Positions 8,272 through 25,593 are shown, counted from the first letter of the stretch. The stretch: 64,000 bases of DNA from Chloroflexota bacterium (GCA_013112715.1 JABFGB010000005.1:1-64000); one strand, 5' to 3'. Notes: generated by a model from the sequence alone, not told the origin. Translations and numbers: made by a program.

Positions 8272-8367
8272 CACTGGATGTGCCAAATCTTCATGCTGTA
8301 GTTTATCCGCCAACTAATGCTACAATAGGTCACGAGTGCCTGAGACGAAAACCGATTGAGGAAAACA

Positions 8368-9610: not shown

Positions 9611-10894
9611 GTGAAAGACGAATCTTTGGAGATGAATAATTTGGAGATCGCGGAAAAAGAACCTGCTCGATCTCTGACAAAAACTGCCTTGCCCCAGACA
9701 CGGGCACGATTAAGTTCGTTCCAAGTATTGACCATCATGGTCGCATTGGTCATGACCAGCACCGTGTCGTTTTTAGGTGGGGTCATTTATGACCGTCGGA
9801 CAGGCGACGCCTATTCTGATGAATTCCAAGTGTTTTGGGAAACATGGAACACCGTAGATAAAGAATTCTACGGCGATATGCCCAACCGCCAAGATCGCGT
9901 GTATGGCGCGATTCAGGGTTTTATCACCACCCTCAATGACCCCTTTACCGCTTTTGTAGTGCCGGAGCAAGCCGACATCCATCGTCAATTTATGTCGGGT
10001 AAATTTGGCGGCATCGGCGCATCGGTCAGTATTGATGCCAATGGCGAACCCTATATCACTCGCTTGTTACGTGGCAACCCCGCCGAAAAAGCGGGTTTGG
10101 AACCACTGGATGTTATTAAAGGAGTGGACGGTCAATCAGTACAGGGCATGACTCTGGATGAGGTGGTAGATTTGATTAAGGGCGATGTCGGCACAGAAGT
10201 GGTCTTGACCATTTACCGCCCCTCCCAAGATACCACCTTTGACCAACCGATTATGCGGGCCGTGATCGAGGAATTGACTGCCTACTCTGGCATGATTGGC
10301 GATATTGGCTATCTAAGGTTATCCAGTTTTAATGCTGTCTCTGCCAGCCAAACCGAACGGGAACTCCAGAGTCTACTTGACCAAGACCCACGTGCGATTG
10401 TCTTCGACTTGCGGGGTAACGGCGGCGGCCTGTTGGATGAGGCGGTCAAAATTGCCGATATGTTCCTCGACGAAGGTCTGGTTTTGACCGAACGCAGCCG
10501 CAGCGGGGATGAAGAGCGCTATGTCTCGGATAGTGGCGATTTGGGTGAAAGGGTTCCGGTGGTCATTTTGATAGACGGCAACAGCGCCAGTGCCTCAGAA
10601 GTGGTCGCGGGTGCGCTGCAAGACCGTGATCGGGCCGTTCTCATCGGGCAAAAAAGCTATGGCAAGGGGTCGGTACAACTGGTGCATGATCTCCCCGGTG
10701 GGGAACAACTGCGTGTGACCATCGCGGCGTGGTATACTCCCGATGACCGCCGCATTCATGGCACCGGCCTAGAACCCGATGTGGTGGTTGAGGGCGATCA
10801 ATTTGACGCGCAGGGCAACGATCTGTACCTAGATGCCGCCATTGACTATATCAACGCAACTTATCCTCGTGACCCTCACATTTTTGGAGGATGA
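9611..10894 (+). CDS. S41 C-terminal-processing peptidase (CtpA-like), second copy
   Basis: This is a paralogue of the preceding protease: a single N-terminal membrane segment (VALVMTSTVSFLGGVIY), a PDZ domain, then a catalytic core with the nucleophile in GNSASASE and the Lys in SYGKGS. I prefer the GTG start at 9611, which has GGAGG six bases upstream. An upstream in-frame ATG at 9578 has no ribosome site. Only about 35 bp separate it from the first protease. Its own 3' end carries the ribosome site (TTGGAGGATG) of smpB, so the three genes are probably one transcript. Confidence 0.92.
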   Translation: MKDESLEMNNLEIAEKEPARSLTKTALPQTRARLSSFQVLTIMVALVMTSTVSFLGGVIYDRRTGDAYSDEFQVFWETWNTVDKEFYGDMPNRQDRVYGAIQGFITTLNDPFTAFVVPEQADIHRQFMSGKFGGIGASVSIDANGEPYITRLLRGNPAEKAGLEPLDVIKGVDGQSVQGMTLDEVVDLIKGDVGTEVVLTIYRPSQDTTFDQPIMRAVIEELTAYSGMIGDIGYLRLSSFNAVSASQTERELQSLLDQDPRAIVFDLRGNGGGLLDEAVKIADMFLDEGLVLTERSRSGDEERYVSDSGDLGERVPVVILIDGNSASASEVVAGALQDRDRAVLIGQKSYGKGSVQLVHDLPGGEQLRVTIAAWYTPDDRRIHGTGLEPDVVVEGDQFDAQGNDLYLDAAIDYINATYPRDPHIFGG

Positions 10895-10897
10895 AAA

Positions 10898-11359
10898 TTG
10901 GCAGGAGAAGGCATCAAAATCATCACCCGTAACCGCAAGGTCAGCCATGAGTATCATCTGTTGGATACCTATGAGGCAGGCCTAGTCTTGGTCGGGTCAG
11001 AAATCAAATCCATTCGTGCTGGGCATGTCAATCTGCAAGAGGCCTTTGTTACCGACACCAATGGTGAATTATGGGTGCTGAATATGCACATCAATGAATA
11101 TAAGCAGGCCCATAAACGCGGTCATGAACCACTACGTCCGCGCAAGTTACTTTTGCACCGCAAAGAAATAAATAAAATCACCAGCGAGATGGCTCAGAAG
11201 GGGTATACTGTAATACCAACGGCCCTCTATCTCAAAAATGGTCGCGCCAAATTGGAGATTGCGTTGGCAAAGGGTAAAAAACTCTATGACAAACGCCAAG
11301 ATATGCGCAAGAAAGACGACCAGCGCCAGATGGAACGGGCCATGCGTGATTATCGTTGA
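10898..11359 (+). CDS. smpB: SsrA (tmRNA)-binding protein SmpB
   Basis: This 153-residue protein matches SmpB along its full length. It has the N-terminal RNRKVSHEYHL segment, the GSEIKSIRAGHVNL core and a basic C-terminal tail (KKLYDKRQ...). SmpB binds tmRNA and delivers it to stalled ribosomes in trans-translation. The start is TTG at 10898, four bases after the protease stop codon, with GGAGG overlapping the end of the previous gene. I did not find the tmRNA gene in the window. Pairing with tail-processing S41 proteases may be coincidental. Confidence 0.97.
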   Translation: MAGEGIKIITRNRKVSHEYHLLDTYEAGLVLVGSEIKSIRAGHVNLQEAFVTDTNGELWVLNMHINEYKQAHKRGHEPLRPRKLLLHRKEINKITSEMAQKGYTVIPTALYLKNGRAKLEIALAKGKKLYDKRQDMRKKDDQRQMERAMRDYR

Positions 11360-11377
11360 ACAAGATGATAGGCGGTC

Positions 11378-12184
11378 ATGAAACACCACCTCCCCGATAA
11401 ATGGCCTCACACGATCCGGGAAATTAATGATCTGCCCGATGAACAGAAATGCGCCATCTACCAGACATTGATCCCGGATTGGATTTATGATCAATTTGGC
11501 ATTGATCGTGAAACACTAACGATCAATGGTAAGTCAATTATCAAACTGCGCTGTCCACATGGCAGTCGAGCAATGGAAATGAGTGTTTTTCATCAACCCG
11601 GCAGCCGCGACCCTGCCCTCTATTTAAACTTGGCAGATTCATTTTTGGGACAGTTGATGGTTTTGTTAGTGATGATGAACGACCCCTATTCTCCTCGCTA
11701 TAATGTAGACATTGACGAATTGGGCCATCCCACCAATCTTGGTACTTCGGGTCGAAATTATCATGAAGAAGTACGCGCTTTTGAGGCGGGGCTGGCACCG
11801 GGCCAAATCCGCTCCGGCTTGCGTGGTTTTCGTCGGGCTGTGCCCGTGTTTGAGGAATTTGTGGGTCGGATGGGGCACGACTTGTTTTTGATTGAGCCGC
11901 TGTCCTATCACAATGCAATTATCTTTGAACGCTACGGCTTTGGCTATACGGTTGGGCGCCAAGAAATGGAGAATATCCATACCCAGTTTATGCCGGGGGG
12001 CAGTCTACATCAGCGTTTGGATAACCGCAATATTTTTAGACGTGAAGACGCATGGGAATCCATTCGTGGGCGGGCATGGGCCATTCATGACGGCATTTTG
12101 GGACATCCATTTACAGGATTCCATATGTATAAGCGCATCAATCATAATGCCGGAGTCAATACGTTCCCCAATGGGGTTTGGTAG
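11378..12184 (+). CDS. Hypothetical protein, 268 residues
   Basis: I do not recognise a named family. The protein is soluble, with no signal or membrane segment. Its central part (NYHEEVRAFEAGLAPGQIRSGLR) and the segment SYHNAIIFERYGFGYTVG faintly resemble the C-terminal part of GNAT acetyltransferases, where a NAIxFYExxGF motif is typical, but the acetyl-CoA loop is not evident. The C-terminus is rich in His and aromatic residues (HPFTGFHMYKRINHN), which could bind metal. It lies 18 bp after smpB and 31 bp before the STAND ATPase, probably in the same operon. The function is unknown. Confidence 0.7.
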   Translation: MKHHLPDKWPHTIREINDLPDEQKCAIYQTLIPDWIYDQFGIDRETLTINGKSIIKLRCPHGSRAMEMSVFHQPGSRDPALYLNLADSFLGQLMVLLVMMNDPYSPRYNVDIDELGHPTNLGTSGRNYHEEVRAFEAGLAPGQIRSGLRGFRRAVPVFEEFVGRMGHDLFLIEPLSYHNAIIFERYGFGYTVGRQEMENIHTQFMPGGSLHQRLDNRNIFRREDAWESIRGRAWAIHDGILGHPFTGFHMYKRINHNAGVNTFPNGVW

Positions 12185-12215
12185 GTAATCTAGGGAGTGG
12201 TGCCGGGGGGCATCG

Positions 12216-14708
12216 TTGAAAAATAGTAAACCTTCTTTGTATTATCCCTCGCTGGATATTAACACATTGCAGGCCAGCTATGATATGTTAGGGCGATGGG
12301 AAGATGAAACGCTCAGTCCGTTGGCGGGTCTCGTCTTGGTGCAACAGCGGCTAACTGCACCCCACGCGTTGCGTAATATCATCGCCTACAATGAGATCGT
12401 CTATGAAATTCTATCGTCCCTCTTGCTCGACCAGTTTTCACTACTCAGAACCCAGAACAATCTACCTGCGCTTCAAACTGACCGCACTCATGGGATGCGA
12501 CTAGATGAAGCCATTAACGATTTGCAGCAATGTGGCACAAAAGCCAACCGCTATCTCATCGGTTATGCTGCCCTCTATTACCGCTATATGCGGCCTGAGC
12601 TGGAACTCTCTGTTGAGGAAATCAGCCAGCACCTGAATCAAACCGATCGCAACCTCCGTCGTCATGAAAAAAAATGCTTGGGGGTGCTGCTCAGTGAACT
12701 AAATCGGCTTGAACTGGAGGCCCGCGCTGCTCAAAGGCGACTGCGTTGTTTATTGGCACTTCCACAGGACAAGTTACTGAATTTGGACAGCCAACTCGTG
12801 CGTGTCCGTGAGATTAGCGACCGGATTGCGAATAAGAATGCGGTCTCCCATTGGTATATTTATGGCCCGGCTGGTGTTGGCAAATCGAGTCTTGCGCTCC
12901 AGATTTCCCGGCAGTTAGTTGACCGTAACATTATTGGGGATGTGATCTGGCTCGATCTGAGATTAACCCACCCCAGCAACCAACCGCTACCACGTGAGGC
13001 GCTGGCAGACTTGGTGAGTGAAAATTTGCGGCTTCAGGGAAGTCACGAAGGTACCTCATCTAGCCAGTTGATTTATAACTACTTGGCTTATCTGGCAAAC
13101 GACCATCAACAGCTATTACTGATCTTAGACAATGCCGATGGATGGCAGTCCATCATTGAAGCGAACTGGGCTTGGCTTCAGCAGACCGTCCTTATTGTAA
13201 CAGCGCGGGTTCCGTATGAAAATTGGCAGCAAGGGGAGGTGAAATGCCAAGAATTGAGTAAACAGGAAAGTCTCTACTATCTGCAAAATCTTGAACGGAT
13301 ATATCCCTTTCGACGCGAGCCTCTATTTGAGGAAATTGTTCAACGAGTAGGAGGCAATCCCGCTGCTCTAAAACGAATATTTCGTTTTATGGAGATGCTT
13401 TCACCACAAGAAACCCTTGATGAAGCGGCTTTTGTTGATCATCATCGCTTTCAATGGGAACACTTACCTGAATTCTCGCAGGAGGTCTACTGGTGGCTTG
13501 CTGGCTTTACAATTCAGCAGTATGTAAATAGAGAAAGATTACTGTTAGCAAAGAGGTACTTTTTCGCGCCACAATCAATCACTCTAAACCAAAATCTTGA
13601 ATACCTCGCGGCGAGTGGCTTGGTCGAATGTAACATAATCCAAGAACGTCAAACCTATCGCGTTCCGGAGGACAGTTGGCAAATCACAGCCCATATTGAT
13701 TCCGCTGCCCAAAAGCTGCATGAAATCATTCGCCACTTTCTAAGGATACCTAATGAAAACTCTGAGGAATGCGCGGAAATTGCGAGCAGTTTCCTCACAT
13801 TGCTACAATCTCTTGATTTTGACTGGGTAGATGTAACTGTACCCCTTGCGAAAATATGCCAGTCTCTATTTATCCATACGCGCCAGTGGCGGCGCTATCT
13901 AGGCCTATTGGACTGGATAAATAAAAAAGCGCTCCCATTAACCGAGGAAAAGATGTGGATTGGTATTGAGCGGGCTAGCATTCTACGTCGTCTCGGAAAT
14001 TTTGAAGAGGCAAAGACCCAATTGGCATCGGTATTTTATACTGCTCAACAGTTTGAAGATATGTTGATGCTTAGTGACACCCTCATGGAACAATCCATCC
14101 TGCTTTTCTATCAGGATAATGATCAAGCAGCATTTGAAAAGGCACAACAGGCTTATGAAATTCTACGAACGAGCAGCGATAACACCCGTCTGGAGCGCAG
14201 TATCTATCTAGTAGCACAGGCTCTCAGCCGCACAAACGCCCTAAATGCACGGGAATGGGTGCAGGGGATCACCCGTCGTGATGCCGAAGTTTGGGATTTA
14301 GTCGCCCGCATCGAACTAAATCTGGATAACCAAGCGGCGCTCCTTGCTGCCGAAAAAGCCATTGCCCTCTTAGACCCTGACAACCCAGCATATCCACGAA
14401 GTTTAGGACTTTTGGCACGTGCGCTCGTCGCCAATGGGAAAATTTCGGATGCTATTGAGAAGTTCCATCTTGCCATCAACCTACTTCAGCGCCAGCACGA
14501 CCCGGTGGGATTAGCCCGGATGCACAACAATCTAGGGGTGGCATATTTGGAAAGCGATCAAACGGAATACTTGAAACTGGCGCAAAACGAATTTGAACGC
14601 TCACTCCAAATCGCCCAGACGATTCAGGACAAGCATAATGAAAACATCGCTATCCAGAATTTGGCTCATTTGCGAAGCCGGCCCACAGATCGGCGACGCC
14701 ATCAATGA
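12216..14708 (+). CDS. STAND (NB-ARC-type) ATPase with N-terminal helix-turn-helix and C-terminal TPRs
   Basis: This 830-residue protein starts at TTG after a GGGGGG-type site. Residues 129-160 (LSVEEISQHLNQTDRNLRRH) look like a winged-helix/HTH recognition unit. The NTPase has Walker A GPAGVGKSS at 217-225 and Walker B LLLILDN with D305. From about 580 to 820 there are helical TPR-like repeats, the last of canonical ARMHNNLGVAYLES type. STAND proteins are ligand-triggered switches used in regulation and in anti-phage defence. No effector nuclease, TIR or protease domain is fused, so a regulatory role is more likely. It ends 43 bp before a tRNA gene. Confidence 0.85.
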   Translation: MKNSKPSLYYPSLDINTLQASYDMLGRWEDETLSPLAGLVLVQQRLTAPHALRNIIAYNEIVYEILSSLLLDQFSLLRTQNNLPALQTDRTHGMRLDEAINDLQQCGTKANRYLIGYAALYYRYMRPELELSVEEISQHLNQTDRNLRRHEKKCLGVLLSELNRLELEARAAQRRLRCLLALPQDKLLNLDSQLVRVREISDRIANKNAVSHWYIYGPAGVGKSSLALQISRQLVDRNIIGDVIWLDLRLTHPSNQPLPREALADLVSENLRLQGSHEGTSSSQLIYNYLAYLANDHQQLLLILDNADGWQSIIEANWAWLQQTVLIVTARVPYENWQQGEVKCQELSKQESLYYLQNLERIYPFRREPLFEEIVQRVGGNPAALKRIFRFMEMLSPQETLDEAAFVDHHRFQWEHLPEFSQEVYWWLAGFTIQQYVNRERLLLAKRYFFAPQSITLNQNLEYLAASGLVECNIIQERQTYRVPEDSWQITAHIDSAAQKLHEIIRHFLRIPNENSEECAEIASSFLTLLQSLDFDWVDVTVPLAKICQSLFIHTRQWRRYLGLLDWINKKALPLTEEKMWIGIERASILRRLGNFEEAKTQLASVFYTAQQFEDMLMLSDTLMEQSILLFYQDNDQAAFEKAQQAYEILRTSSDNTRLERSIYLVAQALSRTNALNAREWVQGITRRDAEVWDLVARIELNLDNQAALLAAEKAIALLDPDNPAYPRSLGLLARALVANGKISDAIEKFHLAINLLQRQHDPVGLARMHNNLGVAYLESDQTEYLKLAQNEFERSLQIAQTIQDKHNENIAIQNLAHLRSRPTDRRRHQ

Positions 14709-14751
14709 TATTGCGGACTCAGGCCAGTCGTGCTAAGATAAACCCATCATT

Positions 14752-14824
14752 GCCCTCTTAGCTCAGTGGTTAGAGCAGCGGTCTTCGGAACCGGAGGTCG
14801 GGGGTTCGAATCCCTCAGGGGGCA
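14752..14824 (+). tRNA. tRNA-Arg (anticodon TCG)
   Basis: The 73-nt cloverleaf folds cleanly. Acceptor GCCCTCT pairs with AGGGGGC. The D arm is GCTC/GAGC. The anticodon loop CTTCGGA is closed by CGGT/ACCG. The T arm GGGGG/CCCTC carries the TTCGAAT loop. The discriminator is A. The anticodon is TCG, reading CGA and related Arg codons. The outermost anticodon-stem pair is G-G. CCA is not encoded. Confidence 0.95.
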
Positions 14825-15050
14825 TAACACGGTACACCCATCCCCTCCTCCCATACCCACAAAATAAGTTAATGCAACACCCCCTACTCACTCAGTGAGG
14901 TGAGACTTGTCATGTATTTAGCATGACCAACTAGAGTGACCACCTGAAGCCGATTTCGGTATATTGGTAGGTAATTTTGAGGTTTAGGGGGAAAAATTGC
15001 AGCCATAAGATGGCTTTTTCAATATTTTTAGATGTTTTAATCTAGGGTTT

Positions 15051-15090: not shown

Positions 15091-15146
15091 GCCGCCCAGT
15101 TGAGCAAAAACAGATTAGCTCAATTACTGTGCGGCATTTTTGTTTT
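15091..15146 (+). terminator. Attenuator-like hairpin with T-tract 20 bp before the aldehyde oxidoreductase start
   Basis: An outer GCCGC (15091-15095)/GCGGC (15131-15135) stem encloses CAG-TTGAGC (15098-15106)/GCTCAA-TTA-CTG (15118-15129), and is followed by ATTTTTGTTTT. This is the architecture of an intrinsic terminator, but it sits directly upstream of the ribosome site of the gene at 15167. It could end upstream transcription or act as a conditional attenuator. Confidence 0.6.
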
Positions 15147-15166
15147 AAGGAGAAAGAAGGACAAGG

Positions 15167-17902
15167 ATGCTAAAACGTACTTTCGATATCAATGGTGCTC
15201 TAAAGACCGTGATCGTTGACCCAGAGGCCACGTTGGGCGATGTGCTGCGTAAGCAGTTAATGCTGACTGGCACCAAAGTCTCATGCGATGATGGTCATTG
15301 TGGGGCCTGCTCGGTAATCGTAGATGGCAAACTGACACTGGCCTGCATTACCAAAGTCAACCGTGTCCCCGAAAACGCCAAAATCCTCACGATTGAAGGC
15401 ATTGGTCAACCCAATAATTTGCATGTCATCCAAAAAGCGATGATGGCACATGGCGCAGCGCAGTGCGGTTTCTGCACACCCGGTTTTGTCGTCTCGACCA
15501 AAGCTCTGCTAGAGAAAAATCCCAAACCCACCCGTGAAGAAGTTCGGGCATGGTTCACCCAACACCATAACGCCTGTCGCTGCACAGGGTATAAACCGAT
15601 TGTAGACGCAGTAATGGATGCAGCAGCGGTGTTACGTGGCGAAAAGAAAGTGGAAGACTTGGAGTTCAAGATGCCTGCTGATGGTCGCATCTGGGGCAGC
15701 AAGTATCCACGCCCAACCGCCGAACAAAAAGTCACCGGGACGCTGGATTATGGGCAAGACCTCGGTCTAAAGATGCCCCCCGGCACGCTCCATCTCGCAT
15801 TAGTACAGGCCAAAGTTTCCCACGCCAATATCCTCTCGATTGACACCTCCGAAGCCGAGAAGATGCCCGGCGTCTTTAAGGTCGTGACGCACAAGGATGT
15901 GTTGGGTAAAAACCGTATCACGGGCCTAATTACCTTCCCGACCAATAAAGGCGACGGCTGGGATCGGCCTATTTTGTGCGATACAAAGGTTTTCCAATAT
16001 GGCGACGCGATTGCAATTGTCTGCGCCGACACCCCTGAGCAGGCCAAAGCTGCTGCGGAGAAGGTACGGGTTGAGCTAGAAATCCTTCCCGCCTACATGA
16101 GTGCTCCAGCCGCGATGGCCCCAGATGCTATTGAGATTCACCCCGGCACGCCCAATGTCTACTTTGAGCAGAAGATCGCCAAAGGCAAAGATACCGCAGC
16201 GATTATGGAAACGGCCCCCTATGTTGTAGAAGACAGCTTCTATCTACAGCGTCAGCCTCACTTGACCATCGAAGGCGATATGGGGTTCGCGTATTATGAT
16301 GAGAATGAGTGTCTGACCATTCATACCAAATCCATTGGTCTGTACCTACACCTTTATATGATCGCCCCCGGTCTCGGCGTTGAACCCAACAAACTGCGCC
16401 TCGTACAAAATCCAGCGGGTGGTACATTCGGGTACAAGTTCTGCCCGACGATGGAGGCCCTGCTCGGCGTGGCCTGCATTGCGACCAAACGCCCCGTCTA
16501 TCTCGAATATGATTATGAACAATACATGACCTATACAGGTAAACGTTCACCTTTCTTCGTAGATTTGAAGATGGCTGCCGACAAGAACGGCAAGATCATT
16601 GCGATGGAGAGTGACTGGACGGTAGATCATGGCCCATATTCTGAATTTGGCGACTTGCTGACATTGCGCGGCGCTCAATATATCGGTGCGGGTTATAACA
16701 TCCCGAATATTCGTGGCATGGGTCGTACAGTATGCACCAACCATGCGTGGGGTGCGCCGTTCCGTGCTTATGGCTCGCCACAAGCCTTCCTCGCCTCCGA
16801 GAGCTTGGTGGATGAACTCGCCGAGAAGATGGGCATTGACCCGCTGGAATTCCGTTATAACAATGTCTATCGCCCCGGTGACACTACTCCCACCGGACAG
16901 GCACCTGAAGTCTATTCACTGCCCGAAATGTTAGATGCGCTGCGTCCGCTGTATAAGCAGGCTAAAGAAAAAGCCGCTCGTGAATCCACACCTGAAAATC
17001 GCAAAGGGGTCGGCATCTCCATTGGTATTTATGGCAGCGGCCTCGACGGTGTGGACGGCGCGGAAGCCAAGATTGTTTTGGGCAAAGATGGCGTGACCGT
17101 GTACGCCACATGGCAAGATCATGGTCAAGGCGCGGATGCGGGTGTGCTTGGGACAGCCCATGAGTCGCTGCGTCCGTTAGGATTGCGACCCGATCAGATT
17201 TACCTCGCACTGAATGACACCGGAACCGCCCCGAATGGTGGCCCATCAGGTGGCAGCCGCAGCCAAGTGGTCATCGGCAATGCCATCAAGAACGGCTGTG
17301 ACCAACTGATCGCCGCAATGCGTAAGCCGAATGGTTCGTTCCGCACCTATGATGAAATGGTCGCGGAAAAACTCCCGCTGGAATATGTGGGCAAGTGGGC
17401 CGCTTCGGAAAACAGCAACTGCGATGCAAATGGTCAGGGTAAGCCATTCGCCGTCTATATGTACGGAGCGTTCATGGCCGAAGTCACGGTCAACACCAAG
17501 ACAGGCAAGACCACCGTTGACGGTATGACCATCATGGCCGACGCGGGTGTCATCAACAACAAACTCGTGGTAGATGGGCAAATCTATGGCGGTGTCGCGC
17601 AAGGTATTGGGTTGGCGCTGTCCGAAGACTTTGAGGACATCGAGAAACACAATAATATGCGCGGCGCAGGAATTCCGTATGCCCGTGATATTCCAGATAA
17701 GATGGATATTTACTACTTCCAGACCCCACGTCCCAGCGGCCCATTTGGAGCAGCGGGTGTGGGTGAGCTACCCTTGACCTCGCCACACGTCGCGGTCATT
17801 AACGCGATTTACCATGCGACAGGTGTCCGTATCCGCCACCTGCCCGCCCGTCCCGAAAAAGTCCTAGACGGCCTCAAAGAAGTGGAACCGATGCCCATCT
17901 AA
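15167..17902 (+). CDS. Molybdenum hydroxylase, MOP-type aldehyde oxidoreductase
   Basis: This 911-residue single-chain enzyme of the xanthine-oxidase family oxidises aldehydes (or hydroxylates a heterocycle) with water at a molybdopterin centre. Cysteines 40, 45, 48 and 60 form the plant-type [2Fe-2S] cluster. Cysteines 100, 103, 137 and 139 form the second. As I recall, these numbers coincide with those of Desulfovibrio gigas MOP. The catalytic Glu lies in GVGELPL (E867, against E869 in MOP). There is no FAD domain, so electrons must leave through a separate partner, plausibly the dicluster protein two genes downstream. The start follows AAGGAG and AAGG sites. It is the first gene of the Trs-like cluster. 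Confidence 0.93.
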   Translation: MLKRTFDINGALKTVIVDPEATLGDVLRKQLMLTGTKVSCDDGHCGACSVIVDGKLTLACITKVNRVPENAKILTIEGIGQPNNLHVIQKAMMAHGAAQCGFCTPGFVVSTKALLEKNPKPTREEVRAWFTQHHNACRCTGYKPIVDAVMDAAAVLRGEKKVEDLEFKMPADGRIWGSKYPRPTAEQKVTGTLDYGQDLGLKMPPGTLHLALVQAKVSHANILSIDTSEAEKMPGVFKVVTHKDVLGKNRITGLITFPTNKGDGWDRPILCDTKVFQYGDAIAIVCADTPEQAKAAAEKVRVELEILPAYMSAPAAMAPDAIEIHPGTPNVYFEQKIAKGKDTAAIMETAPYVVEDSFYLQRQPHLTIEGDMGFAYYDENECLTIHTKSIGLYLHLYMIAPGLGVEPNKLRLVQNPAGGTFGYKFCPTMEALLGVACIATKRPVYLEYDYEQYMTYTGKRSPFFVDLKMAADKNGKIIAMESDWTVDHGPYSEFGDLLTLRGAQYIGAGYNIPNIRGMGRTVCTNHAWGAPFRAYGSPQAFLASESLVDELAEKMGIDPLEFRYNNVYRPGDTTPTGQAPEVYSLPEMLDALRPLYKQAKEKAARESTPENRKGVGISIGIYGSGLDGVDGAEAKIVLGKDGVTVYATWQDHGQGADAGVLGTAHESLRPLGLRPDQIYLALNDTGTAPNGGPSGGSRSQVVIGNAIKNGCDQLIAAMRKPNGSFRTYDEMVAEKLPLEYVGKWAASENSNCDANGQGKPFAVYMYGAFMAEVTVNTKTGKTTVDGMTIMADAGVINNKLVVDGQIYGGVAQGIGLALSEDFEDIEKHNNMRGAGIPYARDIPDKMDIYYFQTPRPSGPFGAAGVGELPLTSPHVAVINAIYHATGVRIRHLPARPEKVLDGLKEVEPMPI

Positions 17903-17921
17903 GTGATTTAATGTGGAGCAA

Positions 17922-17958
17922 CATCCGGGTAGAGACTCAACTATACTTTACCCGGATG
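17922..17958. promoter_or_regulatory. Ten-bp perfect inverted repeat between the oxidoreductase and the DUF364 gene
   Basis: CATCCGGGTA (17922-17931) and TACCCGGATG (17949-17958) are perfect complements around a 17-base spacer, which itself contains TATACT (17942-17947), a good -10 match. The element may be an operator over an internal promoter or an mRNA hairpin. No T-tract follows, so it is not a simple terminator. Confidence 0.45.
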
Positions 17959-17979
17959 GGTATTTATCGAGTATCAATT

Positions 17980-18708
17980 ATGGTCGCCATTGACGATTTA
18001 TTGACCCACGCCCTTGCACATCCACACGATACCTTGACCCGTGAAGTGTTGGTCGGCTTATACTGGGCAGCGGTTTATGGTGAGCGCGTGGGCCTAGCCG
18101 CGACATTGACCAATACCACTTGCTGCGATGCCACCGATGTAGCAGGTGTGGGCCAGCTACACCACCGTCCTATCCATGAACTCATTCCACTACTTCAATC
18201 CACCCATCCACTTGAAATCAGCATTGGGATGGCGGCGCTCAATTCAGCCCTGCCCGTCAATGAGCAGGATGGGGTGGAGTTTAATGCCCGTGATCTGATT
18301 TTGGAGCGGGGACGCGATAAAACCGTCGTAACAGTAGGTCATTTCCCGTTTACAGATGCCATCCGCAAAGTCGCCGCAGAATTGTGGGTACTAGAATTAA
18401 ATCCTGCTGAAGGCGATCAACCTGCCAGTGCCGCTCCCGAACTCATTCCGCAGGCCGATATCATTGGATTAACCGCCACTACCTTGATGAATGGCACTTT
18501 TGAAACTTTACGTACACTATTTCCGCCTCACGCTCTGGTGGTCATGATGGGGCCAAGTACCCCCCTAAGCAAAGTCTTATTTGATTATGGGATAGATATT
18601 CTAGCAGGGGCGCTGGTGGATGACCCCTCGACCCTATTTCATTACGTTGGGCAAGGCTCGTCGCTGCACCGTGTCCCCGGCCTGCGACGATTTACAATGG
18701 TGAAGTAA
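17980..18708 (+). CDS. DUF364-like (putative metal-chelation/Rossmann-like) protein
   Basis: The product has the DUF4213-then-DUF364 arrangement. It shows a TLTNTTCCDATD motif early, then VVTVGHFPFTDAI, ADIIGLTATTLMNGTFETLR and LVVMMGPSTPLS. Proteins of this family are often encoded next to metal or molybdate-related genes and are thought to bind metal, but no reaction is established. I chose ATG 17980, giving about 242 residues. In-frame ATGs at 17911 and 17956 exist, but the region between them holds an inverted repeat and a TATACT box. It ends four bases before the next gene. A cofactor or metal-handling role for the molybdoenzyme is inferred from context. Confidence 0.75.
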   Translation: MVAIDDLLTHALAHPHDTLTREVLVGLYWAAVYGERVGLAATLTNTTCCDATDVAGVGQLHHRPIHELIPLLQSTHPLEISIGMAALNSALPVNEQDGVEFNARDLILERGRDKTVVTVGHFPFTDAIRKVAAELWVLELNPAEGDQPASAAPELIPQADIIGLTATTLMNGTFETLRTLFPPHALVVMMGPSTPLSKVLFDYGIDILAGALVDDPSTLFHYVGQGSSLHRVPGLRRFTMVK

Positions 18709-18712
18709 CAGC

Positions 18713-21040
18713 ATGGATCAAAAAGAGTTATTTGCACTGGAACAACAGTGTATTCAAGAATGTGCCCCTCCCTGTACCGCCGCTTGCCCCGTCCATGTGG
18801 ATGTGCGGGCCATGCTTGCCGAAACCGCGCGAGGTGATTTTTCGGCCGCCCTCAAAATCTATCAAAAAGCCGTCCCGTTTCCCAACATTCTCAGCCGCAT
18901 CTGCGACCAACCCTGCCAAAATGTGTGCCGTCGGGGTGAAATTGAAGAATCCATTGCCATCCGTGCGCTAGAGCGGGCGGCGGTCAATCATGGCGAACTG
19001 CCTGAAGAAAAAAAACGCCCCATGCCCAAGCGCAGTGGAGATATTGCGGTGATTGGCGGGGGGATCAGTGGCTTGACCGTCGCCTACGATCTGGCTCGTA
19101 AAGGCTACAAAATCACCATCTACGAAGCGGGGAATGAGCTTGGCGGCGGATTATGGAAAGCAGATCGGGATTATTTGCCAGCCGAGGTGATTCGGGAGGA
19201 CGTTGAGGTCATATATGAATTAGGGGTTGAGGTTGATCTCAATACCCTGATAGACCATATTCATCTTGTTGAATTACGGAATGCCTTCGATGCCGTGTAT
19301 ATTGCCGTAGGGCCACACGCCAGTGAGAATTTTGAACTCGAACGCGATGAATATGGCGTCATCAAGGTTGATCCTATCACCTTTGAGACTAGCATGGCAG
19401 GGGTATTCGCGGGTGGAGGATTGCTGTGGGGCATTGAAATGCACTCGTCGGTGACATCCATTTCGGAGGGCCGTCGGGCGGGTATTTCGATTGATCGTTA
19501 TTTACAGAAGGTTTCGGTAACGGCTTCACGGGTGAATGAAGGCCCCTATACCTCGTGTTTGTATACCGACATCAGCGGAATTAGCCCACGCCCCCTAATT
19601 CAAATAGGTGATCCCGATTTTGGATATGAATGGCACGAAGCCATCCAAGAGGCCAAGCGGTGTATCCAATGTGAGTGCATGGAATGTGTTAAGGCGTGCG
19701 AATATCTGCGCGAATTTGGTCGCTATCCCCGGCGTTATGTGCGGGAAATCTACAACAACCTTTCGATTGTCAAAGGCACACGCTACGCCAATACCTTTAT
19801 CAATTCATGCAGCCTGTGTGGATTGTGCGCCGAAATCTGCCCTGAAAATTTGGATATGGGCGCGGTCACTCTCAAGGCGCGGCAGACGATGGTAGTGCAA
19901 AATCGGATGCCTGCCTCGGCACATGATTTCGGTCTGCGCGATATGCAGTTTAGCAACAGCGACAAGTTTTTGATGGTGCGGAATGCCCCCGGTGCAACCA
20001 CCAGCGACTATGTTTTGTTCCCCGGCTGTCAATTGAGCGCCTCTTCACCGGAGCACGTCGAACGGGTCTACGGCGATTTGCGAGGGCAGCTACCAGATAA
20101 CCGTGTTGGATTGATGTTAGGTTGCTGTGGTGCCCCTGCAAATTGGGCCGGACGACCTGACCTGTTTGAAAGCATTTTATCGGCGTGGCACACCCATTTG
20201 CAAGCAATGGGCAATCCTAAAGTGATTTTGCCCTGCTCAAGCTGTTATCAGGTTTTCCAAAAACACCTCCCCGATGTTGAAATCATCTCGCTCTGGGATT
20301 TCTTTGACGAACATGGGCTACCCACCGAAGCCACCTCAGCCAACCGCACCGTCTCGATTCACGACCCATGCAGCACACGCTATGAAAGCCATCTACAAGA
20401 CAGTATCCGGCGCATTTTGCGGCGACTGGGGTATCAAATTGAAGAATTGCCGCGCAGCCGCGAACGAACCACCTGTTGCAGTTATGGTGGCATGATGTGG
20501 TTAGCCAATCCCAATCTGGCCGAAAAAGTGGTGCAAAAACGCATCCAAGAGGGTGAAGCCGATTATGTGACCTACTGCGCCATGTGCCGCGATAATTTTG
20601 CTGGACAGGGCAAACGCACATGGCATATTTTGGATTTGATTTACAATCAAGGCAGTGATGAACACGGGTCGCAGCGCGGGCCGACCTATTCACAGCGACA
20701 TGAAAACCGTGCTCGGCTCAAACGGCACTTACTGACCGAGATTTGGGGAGAAACGATGGACGGCTCACAGCCCTACGAATCCATTCGATTGAGTATTGCG
20801 GAGGATGTACAGGCCAAATTGGAACAACGCCTAATTTTGGTTGAGGATATCCAGCGCGTGATTGAATATGCCGAACGCACCCGGCGCAGATTGCTCAATC
20901 GCCAGACAGGGCATTATTTGGCCTATTATAAACCCACCACTGTGACATACTGGGTCGAATACATGCCAGCGGAGGATGGGTTTACCATTTTTAATGCCTA
21001 CAGTCACCGCATGGAAGTACCGGGGAGTGGGCCATCATGA
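18713..21040 (+). CDS. Flavin/Fe-S oxidoreductase with two CCG (HdrB-like) domains (DVU_1558-like dicluster protein)
   Basis: This 775-residue fusion begins with a GltD-type N-terminal Fe-S region (Cys pattern within residues 13-72). An FAD Rossmann domain follows (VIGGGISGL at 113-121). The NAD(P)H-binding insert normally between the FAD halves appears to be missing. Next come two ferredoxin-type cysteine groups (CIQCECMEC, CSLCGLCAEIC). Last are two CCG domains (MLGCCGAP...CSSC and TTCCSYGG...CAMC) that in heterodisulfide reductase bind non-cubane clusters. I infer that it relays electrons from the aldehyde oxidoreductase to a disulfide-like or quinone acceptor. It overlaps the next gene by four bases (ATGA). 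Confidence 0.88.
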   Translation: MDQKELFALEQQCIQECAPPCTAACPVHVDVRAMLAETARGDFSAALKIYQKAVPFPNILSRICDQPCQNVCRRGEIEESIAIRALERAAVNHGELPEEKKRPMPKRSGDIAVIGGGISGLTVAYDLARKGYKITIYEAGNELGGGLWKADRDYLPAEVIREDVEVIYELGVEVDLNTLIDHIHLVELRNAFDAVYIAVGPHASENFELERDEYGVIKVDPITFETSMAGVFAGGGLLWGIEMHSSVTSISEGRRAGISIDRYLQKVSVTASRVNEGPYTSCLYTDISGISPRPLIQIGDPDFGYEWHEAIQEAKRCIQCECMECVKACEYLREFGRYPRRYVREIYNNLSIVKGTRYANTFINSCSLCGLCAEICPENLDMGAVTLKARQTMVVQNRMPASAHDFGLRDMQFSNSDKFLMVRNAPGATTSDYVLFPGCQLSASSPEHVERVYGDLRGQLPDNRVGLMLGCCGAPANWAGRPDLFESILSAWHTHLQAMGNPKVILPCSSCYQVFQKHLPDVEIISLWDFFDEHGLPTEATSANRTVSIHDPCSTRYESHLQDSIRRILRRLGYQIEELPRSRERTTCCSYGGMMWLANPNLAEKVVQKRIQEGEADYVTYCAMCRDNFAGQGKRTWHILDLIYNQGSDEHGSQRGPTYSQRHENRARLKRHLLTEIWGETMDGSQPYESIRLSIAEDVQAKLEQRLILVEDIQRVIEYAERTRRRLLNRQTGHYLAYYKPTTVTYWVEYMPAEDGFTIFNAYSHRMEVPGSGPS

Positions 21041-21234
21041 GTGAGCAAGAACAGGTTTGGATGTGCGATAACTGTAATATCCCCTTGCAGCCCGATAAAG
21101 TGGATGTGGCCTATATGGGTAATGCTTTTCCGGTTGAATTATTGAAATGTCCAAATTGTGGGTTGGTCTTTATCCCCGAAGATTTAGCGCTTGGCAAAAT
21201 GGTCGAAGTCGAAAAACAACTCGAAGATAAATAA
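21037..21234 (+). CDS. Small CxxC...CxxC redox or zinc-ribbon protein (DVU_1557-like)
   Basis: This 65-residue protein has CDNC near residue 10 and CPNC near residue 38, separated by a short beta-rich linker. That pattern fits a zinc ribbon or rubredoxin-like site. It overlaps the dicluster gene by ATGA and ends four bases before the methyltransferase. NCBI calls proteins at this position DVU_1557 family redox proteins, as I recall. The partner is presumably the dicluster protein. Confidence 0.8.
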   Translation: MSEQEQVWMCDNCNIPLQPDKVDVAYMGNAFPVELLKCPNCGLVFIPEDLALGKMVEVEKQLEDK

Positions 21235-21238
21235 CTTC

Positions 21239-21973
21239 ATGATAACCAATCAACGCATCCGCCTTTATGAGCAAACCACCTTGTTTGACCGCGTGGGAGA
21301 AGCCATTCGGCCCGGCGGCATGGCGCTGACTGACCACGCCTTGAACCTATGCGATTTGCCTAGTGGGTCACGTTTGCTCGATGTGGGATGTGGGCCGGGG
21401 GCAGCGATGGCCTACCTCAGCGACCATTACGATTATCAAGTGTTCGGCTGCGACCCATCCGCCCAATTATTGCAAACCGCCTATCATCACGGGGTGCGGT
21501 CTGTTGTGCGGGCAATAGGTGAACAACTACCCTTTGCGAGCGCAAAGCTAGACGCCATCATGACCGAATGTAGTTTATCTGTCATGCAAAACGCCGAGAT
21601 CGCCCTTCAAGAATTCGCCCGGATTTTGCGACCCGATGGCTATCTGATTCTGAATGATTTCTATGTGCGGAATCCTGCTGGCATGGCGGCGATGCGCTGT
21701 TTACCCGTAGATTCATGCCTCGGCGGGGCATTACCTCAGACCGACATTATCCGACGAATTGAACGACATGGCTTTAGGGTCATGGTATGGGAAGACCATA
21801 CCGACGCGCTGCTAATCTTTACGGCCCAATTGATCTGGCGGCATGGCTCAATGCAGAAGTTTTGGTGTCGTGCCAGTTCCCATGCCGACCCGATGCAAGT
21901 CCAAACTGCTATAGCCCAAGCCAAACCGGGCTATTTTTTATTAATCGCGCAAAAAGGAGGCCGCGATGGATGA
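21239..21973 (+). CDS. Class I SAM-dependent methyltransferase (TrsM/DVU_1556-like)
   Basis: This protein of about 244 residues has the SAM-binding motif LLDVGCGPGAAMAYL, an acidic motif II (VFGCDPS) and a later ILRPDGYLILNDFY strand, so it is a Methyltransf_11-type enzyme. I chose ATG 21239 because the upstream in-frame ATG at 21191 lies inside the preceding gene and adds a low-complexity Asn/Lys tail. Its last eight bases overlap the next gene. In the DVU_1551-1559 cassette a methyltransferase holds this same place. The methyl acceptor is unknown. Confidence 0.85.
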   Translation: MITNQRIRLYEQTTLFDRVGEAIRPGGMALTDHALNLCDLPSGSRLLDVGCGPGAAMAYLSDHYDYQVFGCDPSAQLLQTAYHHGVRSVVRAIGEQLPFASAKLDAIMTECSLSVMQNAEIALQEFARILRPDGYLILNDFYVRNPAGMAAMRCLPVDSCLGGALPQTDIIRRIERHGFRVMVWEDHTDALLIFTAQLIWRHGSMQKFWCRASSHADPMQVQTAIAQAKPGYFLLIAQKGGRDG

Positions 21974-22406
21974 TCGTATGAAAGAACTGTGGCGGCAAGG
22001 CTATTTTTGCAGCCAAATTCTGATGTGCATGGGTCTCGATTTGCAAGGCCGCGACAATCCCCAACTGCTACGTGCTATGAACGGCTTGGCGGGCGGTTTG
22101 GGATTTACGGGCGAATTATGTGGGGCACTCAGCGGCGGCGCTTGCCTATTGGGGTTATATGCGGGCAAGGGCAAAGATGCCGACGAAGAAGACCTTCGGC
22201 TGAATTTTATGATTGGCGAATTGGTGACATGGTTTAAAAATGGCTATGGTCAGGAATATGGCGGAATACGCTGTGATGAAATCCTCGCAGGGAGTTCTCA
22301 AAACCAAGCCATTCGCTGTCCGATTCTTGTGACAGGGACATTGCAAAAAGTCAAAGAATTATTGGTCGAAAACGGATTTGATTTAGCAGGGCCAGAAGAT
22401 GAGTGA
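21966..22406 (+). CDS. C-GCAxxG-C-C family protein (DVU_1555-like)
   Basis: This 146-residue protein starts after an excellent AAAAAGGAGG ribosome site. It shows the family signature: an early FCSQ cysteine (C15), LCGALSGG in place of GCAxxG, and downstream single cysteines in GIRCDEIL and IRCPIL. The four cysteines are thought to bind a metal or Fe-S centre, but no biochemical role is established. It overlaps both neighbours by eight bases, so expression is tightly coupled to the methyltransferase and the radical SAM enzyme. Confidence 0.88.
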   Translation: MDDRMKELWRQGYFCSQILMCMGLDLQGRDNPQLLRAMNGLAGGLGFTGELCGALSGGACLLGLYAGKGKDADEEDLRLNFMIGELVTWFKNGYGQEYGGIRCDEILAGSSQNQAIRCPILVTGTLQKVKELLVENGFDLAGPEDE

Positions 22407-23793
22407 CAACGCTGTTGTCCTTTCCACCACTGAAAGCGTTTGCCCGATTTGCCTGACCCGTCTCCCCGCCGAACGGGTAATAGTCGGTGAGGATGTCTAT
22501 CTTCGCAAAACATGCCCCGAACATGGCCTGTTCCAAACCATTGTGTGGCGGGGGCAGCATCCGGCCTATACCGAATGGGTCAAGTCTAAAATTCCGGCCT
22601 ATCCAGCCCATCCAGCCACGCAAAATAATCTTGGCTGCCCATTCGATTGCGGCTTATGTCCCGACCATCGTCAACAAACTTGCACCGTCTTGTTGGAAGT
22701 GACACAACGTTGCGATTTGCGCTGTCCTTTTTGTTTCGCCGACGCGGGGGTCAATCCACCACCTGACCCTGATATAGCGACGATTGAAGGGTGGTATCGG
22801 CGGCTGTTGGAACTCGGCAGTAATTCCGCCAATATTCAACTTTCGGGGGGTGAGCCGACCCTACGCGATGACCTGCCCGACATCGTGGTGCTTGGCAAAT
22901 CGCTGGGATTCCCATTTATTCAGGTCAATACCAACGGTTTGCGATTGGGGCGGGATGCCAATTACGTCAAACGACTAAAGCAGGCGGGATTATCCTCTGT
23001 ATTTATGCAGTTCGACGGCACCCATGATGATCTATTGGTGACGATACGCGGAGTCAAACAACTAGGCCGCAAACGAGCCGCTATTGAGCGCTGTGCCGAA
23101 AATGATCTGGCGGTGATCCTTGTGCCAACGCTTGTCCCGAAGGTGAACACAGGCGACATCGGCCATATCATCGAATTTGCGCTGGAATATTTCCCAACGG
23201 TTCGGGGCGTGCATTTTCAACCCGTCAGTTATTTTGGCCGCTATCCCCAAGCCCCCACTGACGCAGACCGCATCACCATTCCCGAAGTGATTCGCCTGAT
23301 TGAAACCCAGACAGGCGGTAAGATGAGGATGTCTCATTTCACCACATCGGGCTGTGAAAATGCACTGTGTTCGCTACATGGCAATTTTGTCGTCATGCCG
23401 GATGGTGAATTGCGGTCATGGTCACAACAAAACACCAGCGGATGCTGCACACCCCAACCCGCTGAGATTGGCGCTGCCAAGACTCGCCAATTTGTCGCCC
23501 AATATTGGTCATCCAGCGACAACCTTATTTCGTTGGACAGTATTGGAGAATCCAAGTTGGGTGATTGGGATGTTTTTTTGGCACGTACCATGACCCATAC
23601 CTTTTGTGTTTCGGGCATGGCCTTTCAGGATGCGTGGAATCTCGATTTAGAGCGCCTGCGTGATTGTTGTATTCATGCGGTTAGCCCCGATGGTCGCCTC
23701 ATTCCATTTTGTGCTTATAATTTAACTAACCAGATGGGACGGTCTATCTATCGGAATCAGCAGGCGACAATCCATGCGTATAACTCCCCTTGA
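22399..23793 (+). CDS. Radical SAM protein, TrsS-like (MJ0619/tetraether-synthase superfamily)
   Basis: This 464-residue enzyme has the radical SAM cluster motif C105-x3-C109-x2-C112 (CDLRCPFC) and the SAM-contact motif SGGEPT. Upstream are several more cysteines: CPIC at 15-18, C39, and CPFDCGLC at 80-87. The C-terminal DCCIHAVSPDGRLIPFC region is typical of the MJ0619-like branch, which includes archaeal tetraether synthase Tes. I infer extra Fe-S or zinc sites. The DVU_1554-type members are annotated as radical SAM (seleno)protein TrsS. Here all positions I can see are Cys, and no in-frame TGA occurs. It overlaps the next gene by 20 bases. Confidence 0.88.
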   Translation: MSDNAVVLSTTESVCPICLTRLPAERVIVGEDVYLRKTCPEHGLFQTIVWRGQHPAYTEWVKSKIPAYPAHPATQNNLGCPFDCGLCPDHRQQTCTVLLEVTQRCDLRCPFCFADAGVNPPPDPDIATIEGWYRRLLELGSNSANIQLSGGEPTLRDDLPDIVVLGKSLGFPFIQVNTNGLRLGRDANYVKRLKQAGLSSVFMQFDGTHDDLLVTIRGVKQLGRKRAAIERCAENDLAVILVPTLVPKVNTGDIGHIIEFALEYFPTVRGVHFQPVSYFGRYPQAPTDADRITIPEVIRLIETQTGGKMRMSHFTTSGCENALCSLHGNFVVMPDGELRSWSQQNTSGCCTPQPAEIGAAKTRQFVAQYWSSSDNLISLDSIGESKLGDWDVFLARTMTHTFCVSGMAFQDAWNLDLERLRDCCIHAVSPDGRLIPFCAYNLTNQMGRSIYRNQQATIHAYNSP

Positions 23794-25033
23794 GGGATGG
23801 GTTGCTGAAAAAATCCAACACCCGAAATTGACCCGTCGGGCTTTGGAAAAATACCAACTCGCTAAACTCCAAGCCGGGATTCAATTCGCCCGTGCCAAAA
23901 GCCCATTTTATCGGCGTCTCTTGGCTGATATTCCTAACCTTAGCCAACTAAGCGATCTCGCCCAATTGCCTTTCACAACAGCCGACGATATTCGCCAACA
24001 ACCGCTGCAACTGCTGTGTGTATCCCAAGATGAAATTCATCGGGTGGTGACACTGGATAGCTCTGGCACAACGGGTCAACCGAAACGGCTCTACTTTACG
24101 CCGGATGACCAGCAGCTTACGATTGATTTTTTTCGGGTGGGCATGTCCACTTTTACCAACCCCAATGACCGTATATTGATTTTACTGCCCGGTGAGAGCG
24201 CAGGTAGTGTAGGCGATTTACTGGCGACGGCTTTACAGCAGTTGGGCGCAGTGCCGATCAAGCATGGCCCAGTACGTGACCCCATCGCCACGTTAAATAT
24301 CATCCAGAAGGAAAATATCGCCGGAATGGTGGGTGTTCCCACGCACGTTTTGGCCCTCGCCCGCCAGCCCTATCTACCCATGCCGAAACTTAAGAGTGTT
24401 CTATTGACCACCGACCACGTGCCCAATGCCATCAAAGATGCGGTTGAACAAGCCTTTGGCTGCACCGTCTATAACCACTATGGCATGACTGAAATGGGTT
24501 TGGGTGGCGGTGTCGAATGTGAGGCACGGCACGGCTATCATCTGCGCGAAGCCGATCTCTTTGTTGAGATTATTGATCCCGCGACAGGTCAAATTTTGCC
24601 GGACGGGGAATATGGGGAAGTCGTCTTTACCACCCTGACTCGACGTGGAATGCCCCTGATTCGATACCGCACAGGCGATGTGAGCCGATTTATTCCCGAT
24701 AGTTGCCCTTGCGGTACATGCCTCAAGACGCTCGAAAAAGTCACTCATCGCTTAAATGGACAAGTTATGATAGATGGCAAAAGCATTACAATGGCTGATC
24801 TTGATGAAGCCTTGTTTCCATTGGATGGGGTACTTAATTTTAGAGCGACAGTGCTGCGCGAAAATGGCCTAGATACGTTACAATTGGAGGTTAAATTCAT
24901 AGGGGAACTAGAACCAGCTAGGGTCGTACAGGCAGCACAGACTCTTACTTCGCGGGTAACAGTCCAATTGGTATCAGATTTGCCCACCAGTATGGCGAAA
25001 CGCGCCATTGTTGACACGCGGGGTCACGCATGA
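23774..25033 (+). CDS. AMP-dependent CoA ligase, phenylacetate-CoA-ligase-like (DVU_1553-like)
   Basis: This 419-residue adenylate-forming enzyme has the phosphate-binding loop SSGTTGQPK, the adenylation motif YNHYGMTEMG and a late RYRTGD motif. The short length and N-terminal RAKSPFYRRLL segment are those of the PaaK branch. It should activate a carboxylate as an acyl-AMP and probably an acyl-CoA. An aldehyde oxidoreductase makes carboxylates, so the pair could turn an aldehyde into an acyl-CoA; the substrate is unknown and may be aromatic. The ATG lies within the end of the radical SAM gene. Confidence 0.88.
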   Translation: MRITPLEGWVAEKIQHPKLTRRALEKYQLAKLQAGIQFARAKSPFYRRLLADIPNLSQLSDLAQLPFTTADDIRQQPLQLLCVSQDEIHRVVTLDSSGTTGQPKRLYFTPDDQQLTIDFFRVGMSTFTNPNDRILILLPGESAGSVGDLLATALQQLGAVPIKHGPVRDPIATLNIIQKENIAGMVGVPTHVLALARQPYLPMPKLKSVLLTTDHVPNAIKDAVEQAFGCTVYNHYGMTEMGLGGGVECEARHGYHLREADLFVEIIDPATGQILPDGEYGEVVFTTLTRRGMPLIRYRTGDVSRFIPDSCPCGTCLKTLEKVTHRLNGQVMIDGKSITMADLDEALFPLDGVLNFRATVLRENGLDTLQLEVKFIGELEPARVVQAAQTLTSRVTVQLVSDLPTSMAKRAIVDTRGHA

Positions 25034-25593
25034 GCAAAAAACAACCCCCTGCCAGTACCATCTCACCTGAATATCTACTCTTGGGATTTTTAAATCAAGC
25101 TCCGACACATGGCTATGATTTGCATGAGCGCATCCATCGGGAACTGGGTCAGATTTGGCATATCTCCTTGAGCCAAACCTATAATATCCTCAATCGCCTA
25201 GAGGCCGAAGGGTATATCAAGAGCGAGGTACAAGCCCAAGAAAAATCGCCGCCACGCCACTATTTTCAGCTTACCCCGTTGGGGCACAAACGATTTGAAG
25301 AATGGTTAAATACGCCGACCAAACCCAGTATCCATGCCATTCGAGTCGAGTTTTTGACACGCCTCTATTTTGTATATACGACTACCCCTGAAGCCATTCA
25401 TGCCTTAATAGCATCTCAAATCACCCAGATTCAGATGGATTTGGCGCATATCCAAATCATGTACCGTGAACTGGCCGCCGACCAAGTTTTTAATCAGCTA
25501 GGATTGGATTTACGAATTCGTCAGTTGACCTCCGTAATCTCGTGGCTAGAGGAATGCTATATGCGTTTCGCACCGTCCGGCCCCAAAAAATAA
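25030..25593 (+). CDS. PadR-family transcriptional regulator
   Basis: This 187-residue protein has an N-terminal winged helix (LLLGFLNQAPTHGYDLHERI, then LSQTYNILNRLEAEG) and a C-terminal helical dimerisation part, as in PadR/VirR proteins. PadR regulators often sense phenolic or other aromatic acids and repress neighbouring genes. It overlaps the CoA ligase by ATGA and ends the cluster just before a terminator. It probably autoregulates the cluster; candidate operators are the dyads at 15051-15074 and 17922-17958. Confidence 0.9.
   Translation: MSKKQPPASTISPEYLLLGFLNQAPTHGYDLHERIHRELGQIWHISLSQTYNILNRLEAEGYIKSEVQAQEKSPPRHYFQLTPLGHKRFEEWLNTPTKPSIHAIRVEFLTRLYFVYTTTPEAIHALIASQITQIQMDLAHIQIMYRELAADQVFNQLGLDLRIRQLTSVISWLEECYMRFAPSGPKK

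Follow-up and report, generated by a model that had tools for sequence, protein, structure and literature searches.

A Chloroflexota gene cassette linking a MOP-type aldehyde oxidoreductase to a Tes-related radical SAM protein and its partners

A 64,000-nucleotide stretch of DNA from a Chloroflexota bacterium (GCA_013112715.1, JABFGB010000005.1:1-64000; hereafter the window) carries nine genes at positions 15167-25593 that centre on a molybdopterin aldehyde oxidoreductase (MOP). They encode, in order, MOP, a DUF4213-DUF364 protein (hereafter DUF364), a flavin adenine dinucleotide (FAD), 4Fe-4S and double-CCG protein (F), a small protein with two CxxC knuckles (x), a methyltransferase (T), a C-GCAxxG-C-C protein (C), a radical S-adenosylmethionine (SAM) protein related to Tes (TrsS), a PaaK-like adenylate-forming ligase (A) and a PadR-type regulator. 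We found that MOP and TrsS genes occur together almost without exception, that single copies of TrsS and F accompany several MOPs in some genomes, and that a relative in which one deletion removed the partner genes retains only a frameshifted MOP. We think it somewhat likelier than the opposite, with a probability of about 0.55, that the cassette is an aldehyde-oxidation system, complete in itself and centred on one MOP, in which T, C, TrsS and A make or install something that MOP needs.

Nine of the 151 genomes of the window's order have MOP above cut-off, eight of them together with TrsS and the ninth (G053) with a TrsS cut by the end of a contig, so that the two genes are paired in 9/9; the other 142 genomes have neither. 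Across 150 Desulfovibrionales genomes, both genes were scored in 83, MOP only in 7, TrsS only in 2 and neither in 58 (Fisher 5e-31). On inspection, three of the seven apparent MOP-only genomes (G711, G722 and G662) do carry a cassette TrsS; a further one (G659) stops at a contig edge within F, G655 and G657 were left out of the inspection, and the last (G581) is taken up below. The one among these three that was rescored as a whole protein, at locus L158, reached 562 bits. The association is specific to TrsS in that five Desulfovibrionales genomes, used as a control because they encode a Tes-like protein that, at 335-350 bits, falls short of the TrsS cut-off, have MOP in 0/5 cases.

A natural deletion was found in a member of the same genus (G001). 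Its flanks are collinear with those of the window at ~90% identity, and the bases corresponding to window positions 17988-25472 have been removed in one 7.5-kb event, which leaves only a remnant of DUF364, none of the genes from F through A and a minor part of PadR. The MOP gene is kept, but bears a frameshifting 2-base deletion at window position 16282, and its ratio of nonsynonymous to synonymous changes is 8/27 on the G001 branch and 6/88 in three sisters (p = 0.02), indicating relaxed selection. Read most simply, this means that the MOP of this genome fell out of use after losing its partners.

Copy numbers point the same way. Three MOPs are present in G694 and two each in G672 and G692, with one TrsS and one F in each genome, which implies that TrsS and F serve several MOPs in trans. 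The extra MOPs are either solitary (L166-L169, and L175 in Sporomusa) or accompanied by F and x without T or TrsS (L170, L172 and L173). Three other loci (L077, L084 and L092) have a T-C-TrsS-A block with no adjoining MOP, which is encoded elsewhere in the genome, indicating that A tracks TrsS more closely than it tracks MOP. The trans arrangement argues that T, C, TrsS and A serve MOPs in general instead of carrying out a step on one substrate.

All nine open reading frames are on the plus strand, and NCBIfam and Pfam searches returned as best matches the families named in the original prediction. With scores given as bits against the curated cut-off, these are MOP (15167-17902, DVU_1559 family; NF045668, 1639/1100), DUF364 (17911-18708; PF04016, 125/23, and PF13938, 46 bits), F (18713-21040, DVU_1558 family; NF045663, 1047/530), the 65-amino-acid x (21037-21234, DVU_1557 family, DUF7479; NF045645, 105/60), the class I SAM methyltransferase T (21239-21973, DVU_1556 family; NF045667, 242/155), C (21966-22406, DVU_1555 family; NF045669, 163/103, and PF09719, 90 bits), TrsS (22399-23793; NF045646, 670/490), A (23774-25033, DVU_1553 family; NF045666, 471/300) and PadR (25030-25593; PF03551, 64/27, and PF10400, 38 bits). 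Overlaps occur at F/x (4 bases), T/C (8), C/TrsS (8), TrsS/A (20) and A/PadR (4), and short gaps at MOP/DUF364 (8), DUF364/F (4) and x/T (4, counted from the ATG at 21239; an overlap of 44 if the in-frame TTG at 21191 is taken as the start). Since five of the eight junctions overlap by 4-20 bases, as had been described beforehand, and the other three are gaps of 4-8 bases, the nine genes probably form a single operon.

The resemblance to the Desulfovibrio DVU_1553-1559 set, also anticipated in the original prediction, proved sound, as all seven families score above their NCBIfam cut-offs in the set's own order on one strand. Compared with the DVU_1551-1559 cassette families as a whole (NF045645, NF045646 and NF045663-NF045669), the window lacks an adjoining DVU_1551 nucleoside triphosphate (NTP) transferase and XdhC-type maturation factor, and has in addition DUF364, between MOP and F, and the terminal PadR. 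The connection to DVU numbers is made through the NCBIfam model names and the Desulfovibrionales cassettes L109, L125, L158-L160 and L164, with the D. vulgaris Hildenborough locus itself left out.

To examine the distribution of the cassette we used a TrsS profile scan with one genome per species, and analyzed the best 80 of at least 575 loci, a sample biased to close relatives. The core order MOP-F-x-T-C-TrsS-A is nearly constant over these 80 loci, which come from Chloroflexota, Desulfobacterota and Bacillota, and the complete nine-gene order is also found in three relatives of the same genus. Recurrence in these relatives and, without DUF364 and PadR, at dozens of other loci means that the order is not due to chance. 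A DUF364 gene at or near MOP and a PadR gene close by were seen at Chloroflexota loci only, among the best 80 of at least 575. The Chloroflexota placement and the additional DUF364 gene had been put forward as the new points, and both are borne out, although the placement is not unusual, since many Anaerolineae carry the cassette and the nearest named relatives of that in the window are metagenome-assembled genomes of Chloroflexi/Anaerolineae. Presence within the phylum is nonetheless patchy, as shown by the relatives search, by the scan of the window's order (TrsS above cut-off in 8/151 genomes) and by a phylum-wide scan of 400 genomes with the small x model, in which the window's genome alone exceeded the cut-off.

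Phylogenies of MOP, F, TrsS and A, built from 38 complete loci, place the Chloroflexota in one clade in 4/4 cases, and pairwise distances among the four proteins correlate at 0.77-0.92, which indicates that the unit has been inherited largely together. Joint inheritance, for which phylogenies had been suggested, is therefore apparent in these four trees, with the qualification that 2-6 strongly supported conflicts remain per gene pair.

Cassettes in Bacillota and Desulfobacterota often extend into genes for an XdhC-type factor (NF045664), a MocA-like NTP transferase with an HD domain (NF045665) and a CobC-like phosphatase (TIGR03162, above cut-off), and the Sporomusa cassette has an additional cysteine desulfurase-like gene. 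MocA and XdhC proteins build and sulfurate the cofactor of xanthine-oxidase-family enzymes, and these roles place the T-C-TrsS-A set in a maturation context. One or both of the extended-set genes for the NTP transferase and the XdhC_rel_AOR factor are absent from many Chloroflexota loci. An unlinked XdhC gene is also lost in G001; we dropped this as support for maturation, as in G000 that XdhC adjoins another xanthine-oxidase-type gene (L176).

Desulfovibrio gigas MOP ranks among the textbook molybdoenzymes. The window protein matches it (1sij, 1vlb) end to end over residues 1-904 (phmmer, 1416 bits), with only partial sequence identity overall; its 2Fe-2S cysteines and the motif GVGELPLTSPH are identical, and both proteins have the same 2Fe-2S and molybdenum cofactor-binding domains, two of each in a single chain without an FAD domain in the window protein. 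We found no studies of operon partners of the D. gigas enzyme. The predicted activity of the window MOP would be conversion of an aldehyde and water to a carboxylate at a molybdenum-molybdopterin cytosine dinucleotide centre. Several other loci are of interest with regard to this family. The MOP of L161 (G581, 9612-13309), a Desulfovibrionales locus without TrsS or F, has an opposite-strand DUF364-like neighbour. In the draft genome of Salidesulfovibrio brasiliensis (L109) MOP lies in two frames (G572:C18:6773-7651 and 7642-9480) and F is split likewise, through sequencing error or decay. MOP-like xanthine-oxidase-family frames of ~1220-1270 amino acids with one or two in-frame TGA codons, representing selenocysteine or error, occur in G038, G096, G050 and G118.

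Electrons from the two 2Fe-2S clusters of MOP would pass to F, perhaps via x. Alignment of F to 9bov matches consecutive F residues to 98-293 and 428-632, with ~135 residues absent between them, so that no pyridine-nucleotide domain separates the two parts of the FAD domain; on both sides of this gap F matches GltD/NfnB-type proteins. Twenty-five cysteines are conserved across 62 relatives, and both CCG motifs are complete and of HdrB type (C439-x31-CC-x35-CxxC and C553-x34-CC-x32-CxxC, the final spacing of the second being 32 rather than 35-36), their ten cysteines being 100% conserved in the 62. Lack of the pyridine-nucleotide domain together with two CCG motifs makes the name 'pyridine nucleotide-disulfide oxidoreductase' doubtful for this protein. 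HdrB and HdrA of heterodisulfide reductases likewise combine two CX(31-39)CCX(32-36)CXXC motifs with an FAD domain lacking an NAD(P)H domain, whereas F is a single fused polypeptide with an N-terminal part of GltD/NfnB-type origin. F, unable to bind NAD(P)H through the usual domain, would probably pass electrons to an acceptor of the disulfide or quinone type by way of its HdrB-like CCG pair, and a carrier-reducing role for the CCG pair of its Clostridium ljungdahlii counterpart has been proposed (PMC5640608). The cysteines of x, two CxxC pairs on a hairpin, are invariant in 73 relatives. Its predicted model (predicted local distance difference test, pLDDT, 72), examined for a rubredoxin fold, gave no Foldseek match at E < 0.001, the nearest structures being zinc-ribbon proteins at E >= 0.04, and we regard x as zinc-ribbon-like with low confidence.

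The predicted structure of TrsS (pLDDT 86.8) superposes on Tes (7tom) with a Z score of 42.2 and 37% identity over 398 residues, while its score with the Tes model NF045702, 351.8 bits, is under the cut-off of 450. Alignment to 7tol indicates that all four metal sites of Tes are retained, including the labile Met (M407, equivalent to Met439). The corresponding positions (C15, C18, C39, H42; C80, C84, C87, H90; C105, C109, C112; C324, C423, C438 and M407) are 99-100% conserved in 81 relatives, with C324 a presumed cluster ligand. Between the core and the C-terminal cluster, TrsS has ~37 residues fewer than Tes and this part does not align; we would expect the second lipid pocket of Tes to lie there. 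At the position of Tes Tyr459, Tyr was seen in 0/81 relatives, which have Val, Thr or Ile instead. In comparison with archaeal Tes (GDGT-MAS; 7tol, 7tom; PMC9433317), TrsS therefore shares the fold, a rubredoxin-type site C-x2-C-x20-C-x2-H, an N-terminal cluster with His, the radical SAM cluster and a C-terminal cluster with the Met439 equivalent, and differs in lacking Tyr459 and the ~37-residue stretch, in scoring below the Tes cut-off, and in being coupled to MOP. Although Tyr459 is invariant in the archaeal homologues, Y459F/L variants and Met439 variants of Tes are still active (PMC9433317), so Tes-type radical coupling is still possible for TrsS, judging from its sequence, on a substrate that likely differs from that of Tes. 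A plasmid search returned Tes-like proteins only, at ~30-32% identity over full coverage and chiefly haloarchaeal. Tes-like radical SAM proteins of ~540 amino acids that score 335-350 bits with the TrsS model were noted in G580, G600, G610, G620, G625 and at L016/L045 (G074), the first five being Desulfovibrionales genomes devoid of MOP, and are possibly genuine bacterial lipid enzymes.

We suggest that T, C, TrsS and A constitute a second module supplying a common need of the cell's MOP enzymes, be it a small carrier, a cofactor or a maturation step. In such a module A would adenylate a carboxylate, TrsS would carry out a Tes-like radical reaction at an unactivated carbon, T would methylate, and C would handle thiols or electrons; DUF364 would probably contribute a step related to pterin or molybdenum, with PadR as the likely regulator of the unit. 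More tentatively, the joint product of T, C, TrsS and A may be a new small redox carrier or an altered form of the molybdenum cofactor, required by MOP-type aldehyde oxidoreductases. Several observations weigh against a dedicated supply to MOP. The clear exception among the Desulfovibrionales, G581, has an intact MOP with neither TrsS nor F above cut-off, showing that MOP can exist without these two. Co-occurrence by itself would also be expected of a substrate-specific pathway. The frameshift in G001, a draft genome, could be an assembly error, in which case the deletion and the relaxed substitution ratio would stand. A profile search of the window's genome found no cassette-type XdhC or NTP transferase above cut-off, so the link to maturation is unseen here and general versions must serve. 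High-resolution structures of D. gigas MOP reportedly contain ordinary molybdopterin cytosine dinucleotide, which argues against a carbon-modified pterin on MOP itself, an objection that does not apply to a transient maturation step or a separate carrier, and we know of no such modified cofactor or carrier.

The original prediction had offered two functions for the cassette, a dedicated aldehyde-to-acyl-CoA pathway or maturation of a modified cofactor by the radical SAM protein and methyltransferase. The latter, with its putative modified cofactor, fits our results better. In the former, MOP would make an acid from which A is predicted to form a coenzyme A thioester, with TrsS, T and C processing substrate upstream or product downstream. 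PadR-type regulators often respond to aromatic acids, A is PaaK-like with an AMP-binding fold and its catalytic A10 lysine (Lys409, present in 96% of 73 relatives), and it shares one operon with MOP. Yet A adjoins TrsS rather than MOP in nearly all loci, including the MOP-free blocks, one T and one TrsS are kept in genomes with several MOPs that are ~60% identical, and neighbours of the MocA, XdhC and phosphatase types accord better with maturation; we therefore consider this pathway unlikely, if worth keeping in mind. The close likeness of TrsS to Tes, with its four metal sites, would instead suit a lipid pathway in which TrsS joins or modifies alkyl chains, A activates a fatty acid and MOP disposes of a fatty-aldehyde intermediate or oxidises it. 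This seems to us quite improbable, given the score of 352 bits against 450, the shortened stretch, the consistent absence of Tyr at position 459 and the existence in Desulfovibrionales of a separate Tes-like group that is not linked to MOP. Radical SAM maturases that modify proteins also exist, and the small cysteine-rich x and C are encoded near TrsS, so that TrsS and T might post-translationally modify MOP, F, x or C; TrsS resembles Tes and not the SPASM peptide maturases, and to our knowledge no modified residue has been reported in D. gigas MOP crystals, which leaves this the most doubtful of the proposals.

The DUF364 of the window belongs to the same Pfam family as Dhaf4260 (3l5o), and differs in sitting within a molybdoenzyme operon. 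Earlier work links the DUF364 family to molecules of the pterin or flavin kind as well as to pterin synthesis, molybdate transport and PadR genes (PMC2954201), which fits this position. Upstream of MOP, a candidate operator/promoter on the plus strand (14886-14965) consists of an intergenic block (14886-14945) that is conserved and includes the palindrome CTCACTCAGTGAG, and then a promoter-like GTGACC-18-TATATT pair (14936-14965). Across five genus members 70-95% of its columns are invariant, against 5-20% in the immediate upstream flank; in a promoter scan of the upstream region the score of the GTGACC-18-TATATT pair was by itself not above chance. The leader of ~200 bases has two terminator-like hairpins on the plus strand, at 15001-15025 and 15091-15150. 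The second, GCCGC..GCGGC followed by ATTTTTGTTT, is attenuator-like, lies directly 5' of the ribosome-binding site, has a fold z of -3.0 and is kept in five genus members, making regulation by attenuation possible. A covariance model of this hairpin gave convincing matches in genus members only and none in the loci of other genera searched, and an Rfam scan upstream of the operon revealed no riboswitch, the sole match above the gathering score being a tRNA. A tRNA-Arg (TCG) gene lies just 5' of the operon (14751-14825) and is also retained in G001 beside the decayed operon. Elsewhere in the window, a dCTP deaminase-like gene on the minus strand (31618-32805) is split by an intein splicing domain (PF22769 and PF14890).

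Cassettes of this kind are already known, their families having been curated by NCBI and part of the set noted in 2017, when tandem gene sets of C. ljungdahlii (CLJU_RS11815-11870) were described and redox roles suggested (PMC5640608). That locus (L104) shares with the window MOP, the fused FAD/CCG protein, the four-Cys protein and the C_GCAxxG_C_C protein, but has the MOP-F-x-C part twice with one T and one TrsS, and no DUF364 or PadR was seen there. A 2026 selenoproteome review lists TrsS (PMC13188914). The literature we found naming DVU1559 reports protein abundances only, and a D. vulgaris fitness paper covers the tungsten enzyme DVU1179, with 'DVU15' absent from its main text. As far as we could find, the near-obligate pairing of MOP with TrsS, their arrangement in trans, the natural deletion, an F without a pyridine-nucleotide domain and the Chloroflexota DUF364/PadR variant are new. 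Genes for a radical SAM enzyme, a methyltransferase and an adenylating enzyme almost always accompany those for MOP; we found no explanation of their role, and the function of bacterial Tes homologues was left open in the Tes study (PMC9433317). Taken together, co-occurrence, action in trans and the natural deletion merge these two questions into one, in that MOP activity should depend on TrsS.

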